Shown here in pieces: positions 1 through 5,681 of a stretch of DNA of 5,681 nucleotides (position 1 is its first letter; each line of letters starts with the position of its first letter). This stretch comes from Rubrivivax sp. (lineage in GTDB: Bacteria; Pseudomonadota; Gammaproteobacteria; Burkholderiales; Burkholderiaceae). Below the pieces are notes generated by a model. That model saw only the letters and a program-made list of their open reading frames with translations. It was not told where the DNA came from and did not search any database. The stretch is from NCBI GenBank assembly GCA_004211235.1, contig SEEY01000292.1, forward strand, positions 1 through 5,681, given 5' to 3'. The position numbers and the translations under genes are program-made.

Positions 1-1302
1 GTCTACGACATGCCGGTGACCAGCTTCACCGAGAAGTCCAAGGCCGCCTACCTGATGACCGACTTCGAAGTGCCGCTGTGGGGCGACGCCGAACTGACCG
101 GCAACTTCGGCGTGCGTGCCGTCAAGACCGACGTGTCCGGCACCAGCTTCATCACCTTCCGCTCGGTGCGCAAGACCGCGACCTTCGATCCGGCCAACCC
201 CACCGCCGTGGGCGGCACCACCACCTACTCGTCCGTGCAGGCTGCGACCATCGCCGACAAGTCGACCGACGTGATGCCGTCGCTGAACCTGGCGTTCTGG
301 CCCATCGCCGACAAGCTGGCTGCGCGCTACAACATCGCGAAGACCGTCGCCCGCCCGCCCATCTCCAAGCTGCTGGCGTCCGGCGGTACCACCGTGATCT
401 GCGCACTGAGCCAGATCATCGAGGACAGCGGCGATGAGGCTGACGGCTCCGTGGCGGACCAGGGCTGCACCGGCACCATGGGCAACCCGGCTTTGAAGCC
501 ACAGACGAACGTCAACCAGAACCTGTCGCTGGAGTGGTACGCCAACCGCGACACCAGCCTGTCGCTGAGCGTGTTCCGCCAGCGCGGCCTGATCGGTGCG
601 CCAACCATCGGCAGGGGCCGCAACAACACCAAGGTGTTCCAGAACAGCACTGCCGTGGACCCGCAGACCGGCACGGCGCTGCGTGACATCGAGTTCAGCT
701 TCTCGCAATGGGACAACGCCGCGCCGGCCACGCGTCGCGGTGTGGAGTTCGGCGCGAAGACGGCCTTCACCTTCCTGCCGTCCGTGCTGCGCTATACCGG
801 CATCGACGCCAACTACAGCCGCGCACGTTCCAGCCAGGGCGCGCCGGTGCTGGACCTGATCAGCGGCGACGTCATGCCGGTGGGCAACGAGCCGAAGTAC
901 TCGTGGAACGCGTCGCTGTGGTACGACGACGGCGGCTTCCAGGCACGCGTGGCGATGCAGGTCGTGGCGCCCCGCTACTTCCTGTTCTCGCCCAACACGA
1001 GCAACAACGTGGCGGTCTTCAACTACCCCTCGGTCGGCACCGCCTACCGTACGGGCGCGACGAGCTACAACCCGGGCGCGCCCATCTGGGGCAAGAAGAC
1101 GGCCTACGTCGACGCCAAGATCTCCTACCGCTTCAAGAACGGCCTGGAGCTGTTTGCGGACGCGCGCAACCTGACGGGCGAGCGCGTCCAGAGCAACACC
1201 GGCGGCTACCAGGACTACGCCGACGGCGTGCCCAACATCTACACCGACGGCTACAGCGGCCGCCGCTACATGGTGGGCTTCACGCTGCGCAGCCCGCGTT
1301 AA
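1..1302 (+). CDS. TonB-dependent outer-membrane receptor, C-terminal part (5' end outside window)
   Basis: This is the C-terminal 433 codons of a TonB-dependent receptor, the outer-membrane beta-barrel family that imports siderophores, vitamins or glycans using energy from TonB-ExbBD. The frame is open from base 1, so the signal peptide, TonB box and plug lie upstream. Visible family marks are alternating amphipathic strands throughout and the receptor motif NPALKP (codons 162-167) followed by a strand NLSLEWYANRDTSLSLSVF. The closing block VDAKISYRFKNGLELFADARNLTGE (from codon 370) is the usual penultimate-strand region ending in the N-L-T/N-G box. Two cysteines (codons 134 and 156) flank an acidic stretch just before NPALKP and could form a disulfide in an extracellular loop. 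The protein ends GFTLRSPR rather than in the usual terminal aromatic residue. The substrate cannot be read from this part. It resembles the Xanthomonas/Caulobacter-type receptors often tied to carbohydrate uptake, but that is inference. Confidence 0.93.
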   Translation, partial: VYDMPVTSFTEKSKAAYLMTDFEVPLWGDAELTGNFGVRAVKTDVSGTSFITFRSVRKTATFDPANPTAVGGTTTYSSVQAATIADKSTDVMPSLNLAFWPIADKLAARYNIAKTVARPPISKLLASGGTTVICALSQIIEDSGDEADGSVADQGCTGTMGNPALKPQTNVNQNLSLEWYANRDTSLSLSVFRQRGLIGAPTIGRGRNNTKVFQNSTAVDPQTGTALRDIEFSFSQWDNAAPATRRGVEFGAKTAFTFLPSVLRYTGIDANYSRARSSQGAPVLDLISGDVMPVGNEPKYSWNASLWYDDGGFQARVAMQVVAPRYFLFSPNTSNNVAVFNYPSVGTAYRTGATSYNPGAPIWGKKTAYVDAKISYRFKNGLELFADARNLTGERVQSNTGGYQDYADGVPNIYTDGYSGRRYMVGFTLRSPR

Positions 1303-1318
1303 GCAGGTTCCGCAGAGC

Positions 1319-1356
1319 AACCCGGCAGGCCGCACCCGCGCGCCTGCCGGGTTTTT
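1319..1356 (+). terminator. Rho-independent terminator after the TonB-dependent receptor
   Basis: A perfect 10-bp GC-rich stem (CCCGGCAGGC at 1321-1330, GCCTGCCGGG at 1342-1351) encloses an 11-base loop and is followed directly by five Ts (1352-1356). Two As before the stem can extend it by pairing with the first Ts. It starts 16 bases after the receptor stop codon, so the receptor transcript probably ends here and the next gene needs its own promoter. Confidence 0.92.
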
Positions 1357-1441
1357 CGTTTCTGCGGCGGGGCGTCGTGCCGGCGTGAGCGCCCCGCCAG
1401 GTGAACGTTCGCAAAGTTCTTCGCCGGACGGCCTTCCGCCC

Positions 1442-1469
1442 TTGCTGCGACTGACCCGCTGGCTATGCT
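1442..1469 (+). promoter_or_regulatory. Candidate sigma70-type promoter for the Sel1-repeat gene
   Basis: TTGCTG (1442-1447) and TATGCT (1464-1469) are separated by 16 bases and resemble -35 and -10 boxes, with 3 of 6 and 4 of 6 matches to consensus. The site lies between the upstream terminator and the Sel1 gene, where a promoter is expected, and would give a 5' leader of roughly 70 bases. The match is modest in GC-rich DNA, so this is a candidate only. Confidence 0.3.
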
Positions 1470-1472
1470 GAC

Positions 1473-1514
1473 CGGCGCCAGACGGCCGAACGGCGCCGAA
1501 CAGCGCCGCACCGC
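1473..1514 (+). repeat. GC-rich leader hairpin and three 10-base tandem repeats
   Basis: Three adjacent 10-base units, GCCGAACGGC, GCCGAACAGC and GCCGCACCGC, fill 1485-1514; the third differs the most. CGGCGCC (1473-1479) can also pair with GGCGCCG (1492-1498) across a 12-base loop. Both lie in the presumed untranslated leader, 31 or more bases before the Sel1 start codon. A role in translation or RNA stability is possible but unsupported, and GC-rich slippage repeats can arise without function. Confidence 0.5.
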
Positions 1515-1534
1515 CCGCACCACACCAGAAGATC

Positions 1535-1540
1535 AAGGAG
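1535..1540 (+). promoter_or_regulatory. Ribosome binding site deciding the Sel1-gene start
   Basis: AAGGAG lies five bases before the ATG at 1546. It favours that start over the in-frame ATG at 1465, which has no such site and would place 27 arginine-rich residues in front of a clear signal peptide. Confidence 0.85.
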
Positions 1541-1545
1541 ATTCC

Positions 1546-3096
1546 ATGACCGACGACTTGCGTTCCTGCTTCATCCGGACTCCGGCAGCTTGTGCCGGCC
1601 TGGCCCTGTCGCTGTCGCTGGCGCTGGCCCTGCCGGCGCACGCCCAGCAGGCCGCCGCCAGCGCACCGGCCGGCGCGCCCAGCACGCTCGACGCGGTCAG
1701 GGTGGACGGAAAAAGCAACCGCACCACCGGCGACCCCTCCATCGTCGATGCGGCCAAGAGCAAGGTGCTGTCGCGCAACTTCGCGTCCTCCTGCGCGTTC
1801 ATGAGCGGCTACTCCGCCGCCGAGGACGACGTGACGCTGGCCTATATGCGCGAGTTCCGCATGTCGGACAGCCCGTCCAACGAGGCCGAGCGCTTCAGCG
1901 ACCTCAGCCCCGACGGCAATGCCAAGACGGCCTCGGCCGGCACGTCCCTCGAGGAAACCGCCGCCACCATCGGCGCCAGCGGCACGGATGCCATGGCGCC
2001 CTCCGTCGCCTGCTCCGGCACCGACAAGCGCTTCGCCGCCGGCCGCAACTGGATCGCCCGCAAGGACAAGTCGCTGACCCAGGCCTTCGACGCCTACGAG
2101 GCCGGCAAGTACGTCGAGGCGCGCGCCAAGTTCGAGGAGGGCTGGAAGAAGCTCGGCTATGAAGAGGCGGCCATGATGCTCGGCCGCATCCACCTGCTGG
2201 GGCTGGGCACGCCGCGCAGCACGCCCAAGGCGGTCGAGTGGCTGCGCCAGGTCGTTGACGCGCGCTACGACCCGGTCAATGACCGCCTCCAGTTCGATCC
2301 CAAGAAGCCCGACAACATCAACACCCGCGTCGAAGCCTCGCTGCTGCTGGCCCGCATCTACCTGAGCGGCCTGGGCACGCCGCGCGACCCGGCCGCCGCC
2401 TACAAGTGGTGGAACAAGGCGCTGGACTACGGCTTCGAGCCCGCCGGCACCCTGCTGGCCCAGGCCCACCTGAGCGGCATCGGCACCCAGCCCGACGTGA
2501 AGCCCGCGCTGGCCTATCTGGAAGCCGCCGGCGCGGCCGGTGACGTGAAGGCGCTCTACATGCTGGGCCAGCTCTACCAGCACCAGTTGCCGCGCCAACC
2601 CGAGGGCGTGCCGCTGGACCTCAAGCGTGCCGGTGCCTACTACGGCGCCGCCGCCAAGGCCGGCAATGTGGACGCCACCTATGCCGCAGCCCGCATGCTG
2701 GACCTCGGCGAAGGCGTCGCCGCCCCGGCACCGGAACGCGCCGTGGTGCTCTACAAGGACGCCGCGCTCAAAGGCCACGCCGATGCGCAGAACGCGCTGG
2801 CCACCTACTTCTACCGCGGCGAGGTGGTGCCGCAGAACTTCGCCACGGCCCGGCAGTTCTTCCAGGCCGCGGCGCAGCGCCGCCAGCCGGACGCGATGTT
2901 CAACCTCGCCGTCATGCTGGCGCAGGGCCAGGGTGGCGACAAGGACATGGCCGCGGCCTACGCCTGGTGTTCGTTGGCGAAGGGCCTGGGCAACGAGCAG
3001 GCCGCCACCGCCCTGCCCGCCATCGGCGCCCGACTCAGCGCCGACGAGAAGGCCCGCGCCGAGGCGATGCTGAGGCCCGCGCCGAAGAAGTCCTGA
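1546..3096 (+). CDS. Exported Sel1/tetratricopeptide-repeat protein
   Basis: This is a 516-residue predicted periplasmic or envelope protein. Residues 1-33 form a signal peptide: arginines at 6 and 11, a hydrophobic core of about 17-29 rich in L, A and S, and an AHA cleavage site before QQ. An Ala/Pro linker and a segment LDAVRVDG (residues 48-55) resembling a TonB box follow. Residues 60-190 form an unrecognised N-terminal region with cysteines 83 and 156 that could pair in the oxidising periplasm. From about residue 190 there are six to seven Sel1-like helical repeats, beginning near 206, 262, 297, 333, 374, 411 and 447. Clear examples are LLLARIYLSGLGTPRDPAAA and FNLAVMLAQGQGGDKDMAAA. Sel1 repeats are protein-binding scaffolds, so a scaffold or adaptor role in the envelope is likely; the partner is unknown. 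It follows the TonB-receptor gene in the same direction but is separated from it by a terminator. Confidence 0.9.
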   Translation: MTDDLRSCFIRTPAACAGLALSLSLALALPAHAQQAAASAPAGAPSTLDAVRVDGKSNRTTGDPSIVDAAKSKVLSRNFASSCAFMSGYSAAEDDVTLAYMREFRMSDSPSNEAERFSDLSPDGNAKTASAGTSLEETAATIGASGTDAMAPSVACSGTDKRFAAGRNWIARKDKSLTQAFDAYEAGKYVEARAKFEEGWKKLGYEEAAMMLGRIHLLGLGTPRSTPKAVEWLRQVVDARYDPVNDRLQFDPKKPDNINTRVEASLLLARIYLSGLGTPRDPAAAYKWWNKALDYGFEPAGTLLAQAHLSGIGTQPDVKPALAYLEAAGAAGDVKALYMLGQLYQHQLPRQPEGVPLDLKRAGAYYGAAAKAGNVDATYAAARMLDLGEGVAAPAPERAVVLYKDAALKGHADAQNALATYFYRGEVVPQNFATARQFFQAAAQRRQPDAMFNLAVMLAQGQGGDKDMAAAYAWCSLAKGLGNEQAATALPAIGARLSADEKARAEAMLRPAPKKS

Positions 3097-3104
3097 TCAG
3101 CCCT

Positions 3105-3119
3105 CGGCGCCAGGCGCCG
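3105..3119. other. Short hairpin between convergent genes, without a T tract
   Basis: CGGCGC (3105-3110) and GCGCCG (3114-3119) are separated by CAG and can form a 6-bp stem eight bases past the Sel1 stop codon. It lies inside the 3' coding end of greB, where it encodes part of the tail PAPGAEG. There is no run of Ts on either side, so it is not a standard intrinsic terminator. It might slow polymerase or protect the Sel1 transcript end, but that is speculation. Confidence 0.3.
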
Positions 3120-3540
3120 GGTAGCTGACTTCGACGACCTCGATCTTTTCCACGCCCACCGGCGTGACGAGGTTGAGTTCGTCGCCCACCTTGGCCTTCA
3201 GCAGCGTGCGCGCGATGGGCGAGACCCAGCTCACCTCGCCGGCCAGGCTGTCGGCCTCGTCGATGCCGATGATGCGGATGGTCTTCTCCTCGCCGCGCGC
3301 GTTGGCATAGGTCACCGTCGCACCGAAGAAGACCTGGTCGCTGCCGTGGTGGGCGCTCGGGTCCACCACCTCCGCGATGTCCAGCCGCTTGGTGAGGAAG
3401 CGCAAGCGGCGGTCGATCTCGCGCAGGCGCTTCTTGCCGTAGAGATAGTCGCCGTTCTCCGAGCGGTCACCGTTCTTGGCCGCCCACGACACGATCTCGA
3501 CGATCTTCGGCCGCTCGCCGTCGAGCAGCTCCATGAACTC

Positions 3541-3563
3541 GGCACGCGCAACTACCTGACGCC
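3541..3563. other. Micro-inversion in greB (17 bases between GGC and GCC)
   Basis: On the plus strand, 3541-3570 encodes GTRNYLTPAG, the motif that GreB proteins carry after their leader, although greB itself is on the minus strand. Reverse-complementing only 3544-3560 in place restores LPAG-TRNYLT in the greB frame. The segment is bounded by GGC (3541-3543) and GCC (3561-3563), and the neighbouring GCCGGCCGGC (3561-3570) is a perfect palindrome. Comparison with E. coli GreB (TREGYEKLKQEL) shows that about 25 further bases, for the end of the PAG box and six helix residues, are also missing before GAGTTC. Confidence 0.75.
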
Positions 3564-3644
3564 GGCCGGCAGTGCGGGCAGCGACGGGCCGTCGCCATCG
3601 TCGTCGTCAGCCGCGTCGGTTTCCTTGGTGAACGCTTTGCTCAT

Positions 3645-3823
3645 GCAGGCATTGTCGCCACGGCCTCACCCCGAAGCCGCGGGCCATTTGCGACAGCCCG
3701 TGGCAACCCGCGTGCCGCTTTGGACCCACGCAATCCCTTGTCGCCTGAAGCCGCCCGATGGCGGCGTTTGGACGCACCGGTGTGCTCTACTCGTTGCGGT
3801 TTTTTTCAGCAGCAGACCGAAAC
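3645..3823. other. Divergent intergenic region between greB and the cheB-cheR hybrid gene
   Basis: These 179 bases should hold the promoters for both divergent genes, but neither shows a convincing -35/-10 pair. GACAAT, on the minus strand close before the greB ATG, looks like a -10 box without a matching -35. On the plus strand, TCTACT (3786-3791) preceded by TG is a weak extended -10 candidate. A 6-bp hairpin, GCCGCC-CGAT-GGCGGC, lies at 3750-3765, and a run of seven Ts at 3800-3806 is not preceded by a good stem. No good Shine-Dalgarno precedes either start codon. No binding site for a known regulator was recognised. Confidence 0.4.
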
Positions 3824-5681
3824 ATGGATCCCACAAGCGCAGAGCCGACCGGAGCCGAAGACGCACCCGCTGGTTCGACCTCGCTGAACGAGGCGCCTGG
3901 GCAGCAGCCCTCGGCCGCGAAGCAGCTCGCCAACCCGATGGCGCCGTCCAGCGGCCTGAGCTTTCCTGTCGTCGGCCTGGGTGCATCGGCCGGCGGCCTC
4001 GGCGCGCTGAGCCGCCTGCTCGAAGCGCTGCCGGCCACGCCGGGCATGGCGTTCGTGGTGGTCATGCACCTGTCGCCCAAGCATGAAAGCTCGGTCGCGG
4101 AGATTCTGCAGAAATCCACTCGCATGGACGTGGTGCGCCTGACGAAGGCCACGGCCATCGAGCGCAACACGGTCTATGTGCTGCCGCCCACGCACAGCGT
4201 GCTGATGTACGACGGCCACCTGGCGCTCGGCGAGATGGGCAAGGACCGCGGCCGCCACATCGTCATCGACCTGTTCTTCCGGACGCTGGCGCAGGCCCAC
4301 AAGGAACGCGCCGTGGCGGTGGTGCTCTCGGGCACCGGGGCCGACGGGTCCGTCGGCATTGCCGAGGTGAAGGAGCAGGGCGGCATCGTCATCGCCCAGA
4401 CGCCCGAGGACGCGGAGTTCGACGGCATGCCCTGCAGCGCCATCGCCACCGGCAAGGTGGACATCGTGCTGCCGGTCAACGAGATGGCGCAGCGGCTGCT
4501 CGACCTCTGGACCAACGCCCAGAAGATCGAACTGCCCGACCCCGGCGAAGCGGGGCTGCCGGTGCTGCCGCCGACCTCGCCCGAAGCGGCCGAGAAGTCG
4601 CTGCGCGAGATCATGCTGATCCTGCAGGCGCGCACCGGCCACGACTTCAGGCACTACAAGCGCGCCACGGTGCTGCGGCGCATCGAGCGGCGCCTGCAGG
4701 TCAACAGCCTGGCCCACCTGCCCGCCTACCAGCGCTACCTCGACACCCACCCCGACGAGACCGCGCTGCTGCTGGGCGACATGCTGATCGGCGTGACGAA
4801 CTTCTTCCGCGACCGCGAGGCGTTCGAGGCCATCGAACGCACGGTGATACCGGACCTGTTCGCCGAACACCTGCGCGACGAGCAGCTGCGCGTCTGGGTG
4901 CCCGGCTGTTCGTCGGGCGAAGAGGCTTATTCGCTGCTGATGCTGATTCACCAGGAGATGGCCGGCACGCAGGACACGCGGCCGGTGCAGGTGTTCGCCA
5001 GCGACATCGACGAGCATGCGATTGCCACCGGGCGCGAGGGCAAGTACCCCGAGTCGGTCGTCACCGACATCCCGCCGGCGCTGCTGCGCCGCTTCATGGC
5101 CAAGGAGGGCAGCGGCTACCGGGTCAGCAAGCTGCTGCGCGACGGCGTGCTGTTCGCGCAGCACAACATCCTGCGCGACCCGCCGTTCTCGCGGCTGGAC
5201 ATCATCTCCTGCCGCAATCTGCTGATCTACCTGGACCGCGAGGTGCAGAAGGACATCCTGCAGATGTTCCATTTCGCGCTGCGCCCGGGCGGCTACCTGT
5301 TCCTGGGCAGCTCGGAAACGGCGGACGCCACCAGCCGGATGTTCACCGTCGTCGACAAGAAGCACCGCATCTACCGCGCCAACAGCACCGTGCGCGCCGT
5401 GCGGGCGCTGCCCCGCTTCCCGCTTGGCGGCATCGAGCACCGGCCGGCGGAGGTGGCCCCGGCAGCCAAGGTCGTGCTGGGCATCGGCGAGCTGCACCAG
5501 CAGCTGCTGGAAGACTACGCGCCGCCCAGCCTGATCGTGCGGCCCGACGGCGAGATCCTGCACAGCTCGCGCGCCGAGCATTTCCTGCGCTTTGCAGCCG
5601 GCGTGCCGACGCAGCTGCTCTCGGCCGTGGCGCTGCCGGAGCTGCGGCCCGTGCTGCGCACCACGCTGTTCCAGGCCACGC
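3824..5681 (+). CDS. CheB-CheR-PAS hybrid signalling protein (3' end outside window)
   Basis: The frame is open from the ATG at 3824 to the window end: 619 codons with no stop. After a 46-residue Pro/Ala/Ser-rich leader comes a CheB-type methylesterase domain (about 47-228). Its catalytic triad is visible: Ser55 in GLGASAGG, His82 in VVVMHLSP and Asp174 in LSGTGADG. A CheR-type methyltransferase follows (about 257-530), with its helical N-terminal part (RTGHDFRHYKRATVLRRIERR), the SAM-binding motif GCSSGEEAYS (361-370), FASDIDEHAI and SCRNLLIYL (from 462). From about 556, LHQQLLEDYAPPSLIVRPDGEILHSS looks like the start of a PAS-type sensor region. Such hybrids usually continue into more PAS, coiled-coil or histidine-kinase domains. 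There is no receiver domain before CheB, unlike stand-alone CheB. No chemotaxis genes lie nearby, so it is probably an orphan regulator; its target is unknown. In-frame GTG (3782) and TTG (3794) are possible alternative starts, but none has a clear ribosome site. Confidence 0.93.
   Translation, partial: MDPTSAEPTGAEDAPAGSTSLNEAPGQQPSAAKQLANPMAPSSGLSFPVVGLGASAGGLGALSRLLEALPATPGMAFVVVMHLSPKHESSVAEILQKSTRMDVVRLTKATAIERNTVYVLPPTHSVLMYDGHLALGEMGKDRGRHIVIDLFFRTLAQAHKERAVAVVLSGTGADGSVGIAEVKEQGGIVIAQTPEDAEFDGMPCSAIATGKVDIVLPVNEMAQRLLDLWTNAQKIELPDPGEAGLPVLPPTSPEAAEKSLREIMLILQARTGHDFRHYKRATVLRRIERRLQVNSLAHLPAYQRYLDTHPDETALLLGDMLIGVTNFFRDREAFEAIERTVIPDLFAEHLRDEQLRVWVPGCSSGEEAYSLLMLIHQEMAGTQDTRPVQVFASDIDEHAIATGREGKYPESVVTDIPPALLRRFMAKEGSGYRVSKLLRDGVLFAQHNILRDPPFSRLDIISCRNLLIYLDREVQKDILQMFHFALRPGGYLFLGSSETADATSRMFTVVDKKHRIYRANSTVRAVRALPRFPLGGIEHRPAEVAPAAKVVLGIGELHQQLLEDYAPPSLIVRPDGEILHSSRAEHFLRFAAGVPTQLLSAVALPELRPVLRTTLFQAT

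Follow-up and report, generated by a model that had tools for sequence, protein, structure and literature searches.

An inverted segment and a 25-base deletion break greB in a Rubrivivax sp. contig and point to replication template switching

The greB gene on the minus strand of the window, by which we mean the whole 5,681-nucleotide stretch analysed, is interrupted by a short segment that reads in the inverted orientation next to a small deletion. The inversion and the deletion probably arose together in a single template-switch error during replication, of the four-point type 1-3-2-4. The gene, which codes for the transcript cleavage factor GreB, lies between genes for a Sel1-repeat protein and a CheB-CheR fusion and is present as two pieces. 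The features of the window are:

1..1302, plus strand: TonB-dependent receptor, 3' part; frame open.
1546..3096, plus strand: Sel1-repeat protein; frame open (start at 1465 in the ORF list, ATG 1546 by eye).
3097..3534, minus strand: greB 3' remnant; internal ATG 3534, 145 codons, TGA at 3099-3097.
3540..3543, minus strand: junction 2, GCCG microhomology, from comparison with L115, L116, L083 and L110.
3544..3560, minus strand: inverted 17-base core; its plus strand, ACGCGCAACTACCTGAC (TRNYLT), is coding-strand sequence in relatives.
3552..3644, minus strand: greB 5' remnant; 30 codons from ATG 3644, then TAG; compared with intact relatives.
3561..3570, no strand assigned: junction 1, left palindromic box GCCGGCCGGC; perfect palindrome (I2, I10, I11), microhomology of up to 10 bases.
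3824..5681, plus strand: CheB-CheR fusion protein; open up to the window end.

Direct translation of the minus strand from ATG 3644 gives a GreB start that is normal up to LPALPAG and then runs through VR into a TAG at 3554-3552. The initial annotation had placed the stop at the same coordinates, and its reading of a broken greB in the window sequence is confirmed. The opening translation of 3097-3644 on the minus strand is MSKAFTKETDAADDDDGDGPSLPALPAGVR, followed by the stop, and the 5' remnant thus described consists of the acidic N-terminal tail, LPALPAG and two residues translated from inverted DNA. The 3' remnant lies in a different frame, which is open throughout and in which the ORF list, taking as start the first ATG, GTG or TTG after a stop, has no start upstream of ATG 3534. 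This 145-codon ORF passes the NCBIfam GreB cut-offs (203.1 bits for NF002506, cut-off 188; 179.5 bits for TIGR01461, cut-off 171.05), with matches that begin only at profile position 19. Its match to PF03449 begins at position 19 of 71, and its N-terminal coiled-coil domain is incomplete. A gene caller would probably annotate it as a shorter GreB.

Outside the break, greB has an open frame, as do its neighbours, so errors are not widespread in the window sequence. The frames of the TonB-receptor and Sel1 genes each align in one piece, over most or all of their length, with stretches L003, L107 and L108. When window positions 1-3644 were compared, the same two genes were seen to adjoin greB in those stretches too; the CheB-CheR gene was not found in them.

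The sequence missing from the coding strand is present on the opposite one. The plus-strand ORF 3346-4086 includes HELGTRNYLTPAGSAG, and its translation bore out the earlier observation that the plus strand at the break (about 3541-3570) reads GTRNYLTPAG, a conserved GreB segment that intact relatives carry on the coding strand. The 31-base string 3540-3570, which also takes in the left box, is the exact reverse complement of intact greB in L116, of the same genus; the exact string shared with L115, also of the same genus, is 27 bases, and in other relatives it is 9 to 16. The 20-mer 3541-3560 matches as reverse complement at 20/20 positions in L115 and L116 and at 17 to 19 in the other 21 relatives, and in forward orientation at 12/20 or fewer across all 23. 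With the same 23 relatives, the best of 2000 shuffled 20-mers reached 16/20, while among 1801 other 20-mers of the window one reached 17/20 and none scored higher. The reverse-complement match is not due to chance. By blastn, window positions 3540-3583 also match L006 and L007 on the opposite strand (88.9%), beside the normal match, and similar opposite-strand matches were obtained to L003, L005 and L019. The initial annotation had flipped 3544-3560; this core stands, but the exact match extends beyond it (to 31 bases in L116 and 27 in L115) because both edges are microhomologies.

The normal orientation is well documented in relatives, which are Roseateles/Pelomonas betaproteobacteria. The earlier reading rested on close relatives carrying a TRNYLTPAG-type segment at this place, and they do: all 20 genomes of the genus of G368 read [T/S]RNY[M/L/I]TPxG[Y/H]ARLRAEF in normal orientation, and [RK]NYxT stands in frame upstream of the match in 80/80 loci of a genome_contigs scan (the best 80 of at least 561 loci, overlapping the 20-genome set). 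In intact relatives the TRNYLTPAG-type peptide follows directly after LPxLPAG or similar on the coding strand, and the upstream MSKAF..LPAG and downstream EFMELL.. of the window both align forward with them. P0003, the nearest by identity among the 120 proteins listed (97% by BLASTP, 95% in the alignment), reads LPALPAGARNYLTPAGYARLRAEFMELLDGERPK, again in normal orientation, and shares with the window the Leu of the inverted piece. The ancestral order is thus established by both the genus genomes and P0003. At the DNA level the nearest genome is 89.6% identical over 431 bases. Matches to P0003 with an E value of 1e-30 or lower were obtained in 382 of 399 family genomes, and on inspection by eye all those listed start at P0003 residue 1 or 2; greB is therefore nearly universal and a broken copy looks uncommon. 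Some of the listed family matches contain one internal stop, perhaps the gene's own, and G070 has two full-length greB matches on separate contigs (C61 and C17).

Alignment with relatives also fixes the size of the deletion. The interval between the GGC of the first PAG and the GAG of AEF measures 45 bases in relatives and 20 in the window (3541-3560), a net loss of exactly 25, which makes precise the estimate of about 25 drawn earlier from E. coli GreB. A loss of 25 bases is not a whole number of codons, so the downstream frame suffers a shift in addition to the stop. The missing bases, at junction 2, correspond to the second palindromic box and the YARLR codons of relatives. The initial annotation had supposed two GCCGGC-type PAG boxes acting as inverted repeats. 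The left box is present and perfect 10-base inverted arms surround a 17-base spacer in 4 of 23 relatives (L083, L093, L117, L121), but the return junction is a 4-base GCCG match adjoining AGTTCATG and not the second box, which is missing from the window. The other 19 relatives have inner-anchored arms of only 0-6 bases. DNA folding of the 41-base stretch gave -14.5 to -15.5 kcal/mol in L083, L093, L117 and L121 and -4.4 to -14.1 kcal/mol in the others. The lost second box presumably read GCCGGCCGGC, as in L116, in which case the forward and inverted readings would share GCCGGCCGGC at junction 1.

In the proposed event, the nascent strand copying greB would detach from its template once past the first GCCGGCCGGC palindrome (point 1) and anneal to the matching second one, which lies on the opposite strand (point 2). 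Copying would then run backwards for about 20 bases to point 3, and the strand would return to the original template at point 4 through the GCCG match, 25 bases too far along, so that an inverted segment and a short deletion would result from one event. The inverted segment, the deletion size, the junction matches, the relatives' normal orientation and the stop with the loss of frame are direct observations, and both junction matches sit where a re-pairing end needs them. That there was one event, in a living cell and with the copying direction given here, is what the sequence suggests. Template switching, as the initial annotation proposed, is thus supported by the inversion, the deletion and the junction matches, though it is inferred from one sequence and rivals remain. 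Several points count against a single switch. First, arms of 10 bases occur in 4/23 relatives against 0-6 bases in 19/23. Second, the yeast spacers listed in the available text of PMC8604942 are 2-5 bases, against 17 here. Third, 1-3-2-4 events, in which a shorter reverse-complemented stretch takes the place of a larger region, do not make up the majority in great apes, according to the portion of PMC7954356 at hand. Lastly, the authors of that study, under their model and in the same portion, find fairly large deletions through a short switched fragment not convincing (PMC7954356), a caution to be set beside the deletion of 25 bases and the exact match of 31 here. Template switching also figures in bacterial mutation bias in the accessible part of PMC10710837.

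The strongest competitor, which we consider possible but clearly less likely than the single switch, is a chimera formed during library preparation or amplification: single strands from one molecule would have annealed at an inverted repeat and, after end repair, made their way into an assembly of thin coverage, while greB in the organism is intact. Ambiguity in the assembly graph is an unlikely cause, given junction matches of 10 and 4 bases; assembler word sizes are usually 21 or more. For a chimera speaks the state of greB elsewhere, intact at the break site in 20/20 genus genomes and present in 382/399 genomes of the family. Moreover, sonication-library reads with reverse-complemented sequence between inverted repeats are described in the available text of PMC10908179, where the filter is set at inverted repeats of at least 8 bases in all with at least 5 bases between, a range that includes the 10-base arms and 17-base spacer of some relatives. 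However, the artefact reads in that text are soft-clipped and of low frequency, with no return to the original strand described (PMC10908179), whereas in the window the original strand is regained after 20 bases through another match, of 4 bases, and 25 bases are deleted. An artefact would also need to win the consensus.

Two separate steps would yield the same final sequence as a single template switch: inversion of the 17-base spacer between the palindromes, followed by an independent 25-base deletion between GCCG direct repeats. By hand, an inverted product with both boxes would have GCCG repeats exactly 25 bases apart where the deletion lies. Yet it needs two rare events within 20 bases, and the intermediate inverted form is absent from the 20 genus genomes and from the best 80 of at least 561 loci; we regard it as improbable.

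Full GreB is probably not made from this sequence; at most, re-initiation at ATG 3534 might yield a 145-residue protein. The distance from the TAG to this downstream ATG is 17 bases, a spacing that makes re-initiation possible; by eye, no clear ribosome-binding site was found for this ATG. In the model of P0003 (mean pLDDT 66.7, which is modest, with residues 1-20 below 50), helix 1 spans 35-66 and helix 2 spans 77-101, and the 145-codon ORF starts at the equivalent of residue 46, without residues 1-45. The predicted short product would thus lack the acidic tail, which is modelled with low confidence, and, of the 32 residues of coiled-coil helix 1, the first 11. It would keep helix 2, the C-terminal domain and, between the helices, the GDRSEN stretch, which we take to be the acting tip of GreB. 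Deletion of GreB in E. coli has no phenotype according to a review, in the part available (PMC4598747), so loss of greB is plausible. Two or more matches above the PF01272 cut-off are present in each of the 20 genus genomes, and these counts suggest that GreA remains.

The remainder of greB was compared, ungapped over 137 codons, between the window and 19 genus genomes, excluding G406, in which the gene is split. In G406 greB is divided over contigs (L119, L123), with the N-terminal part on L123, and one match begins at contig base 2. Changes private to the window number 2/3/2 by codon position, against 9/11/54 summed over the other 19 genomes; they lean towards relaxed constraint, on tiny counts. 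The non-synonymous private changes, G6, R87 and K115, are each found in unbroken GreB sequences as well (G6 in P0003 and P0009; R87 in P0003, P0004 and P0005; K115 in P0004), so they need not postdate the break. The nearest genome differs from the window in greB at 9/6/28 sites, counted by codon position, as is usual for a gene under constraint. No decay of the remaining greB was shown in this 137-codon comparison with 19 genus genomes, and the event is recent or artefactual.

It is very unlikely that TRNYLTPAG marks a hot spot in GC-rich betaproteobacteria, where PAG..PAG encoded as GCCGGC boxes would be lost repeatedly by template switching and a 145-residue GreB of altered activity, with a conserved internal Met start and the catalytic tip kept, would be tolerated or favoured. 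The motif NYxT..G[YHW] is present in 114 of the 120 listed proteins. Among the six without it, P0030 and P0110 have NC for NY, P0037 has NYMTPEGF, and P0001, P0044 and P0070 truly lack the segment. At the protein level, no inversion was demonstrated in the segment-lacking members of these 120, and the survey gives no support for a hot spot. An exact scan of viral_contigs with the rearranged 25-mer returned 0 stretches, and the plasmid collection gave 9 records with distant matches (60-80% identity), none spanning 80% of the query.

Several of the surveyed proteins have unusual structures of their own. P0070 is a 145-residue GreB that starts at the same internal Met as the window remnant; P0074 is identical to it past this Met and has an odd N-terminus, MLPCSGGARNYITPAG. 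Both are encoded on contigs of about 1 kb, and a contig end is possible. The metagenomic P0001 and P0002 each contain a tandem duplication of ERPK..GKKRLRE in which the two copies meet at RLRE; the second copy of P0001 has DRPK instead of ERPK. The arrangement looks like a product of recombination, or of mis-assembly, at the direct repeats RLREEL and RLREID. P0014 has a second, similar SPIAR..LLK..GDE..LVTP-like segment at its C-terminus.

A recombinase-driven reversible switch (an intragenic inverton) that turns greB off is hardly credible and was rejected: with the second arm missing, there is no pair of arms between which the segment could flip back. Inverted arms do surround the segment in some relatives and the stop is supplied by inverted DNA, but no recombinase family matched among the four genes scanned within 5.7 kb and 0/20 genus genomes have the inverted form.

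Invertons are phase-variable inversions, and the greB break resembles them in being a DNA inversion between inverted repeats; it differs in its lost second arm, irreversibility and very short spacer, and in that no recombinase was seen in the window. The break also resembles the yeast spacer inversions attributed to intermolecular template switching between arms in the available text of PMC8604942, which likewise affect a segment of a coding gene, with a 10-base arm and no need for a recombinase. Here, however, the spacer is 17 bases, the loss of 25 bases took the second arm with it, and greB is broken whereas the yeast genes are altered by a few residues. In the four-point 1-3-2-4 events of PMC7954356, as far as that source was available, the region between points 1 and 4 is exchanged for a partial reverse complement of itself, as in greB. 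The window accordingly presents a reverse-complement match (with L116 as stand-in for the ancestor), forward resumption on both sides and an ancestral state known from relatives; those events are from great apes, whereas this is a bacterial gene in one lineage, for which no sister close at the DNA level was found. The E. coli quasipalindrome mutations in the accessible part of PMC7202029 share with it bacterial replication switching at inverted repeats, but what the reporters there detect is a 4-bp frameshift being removed intramolecularly from a palindrome, in contrast to the inversion with loss of bases seen here. An ordinary alignment would score the greB break as substitutions plus an indel, which calls for caution. 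The break belongs to a known mutational class and is a good specimen of it: the sequence matches can still be read at each junction, and many relatives show what the undamaged gene looks like. Should reads confirm it, it would be an unusually legible natural case of a bacterial inversion and deletion from one template switch.
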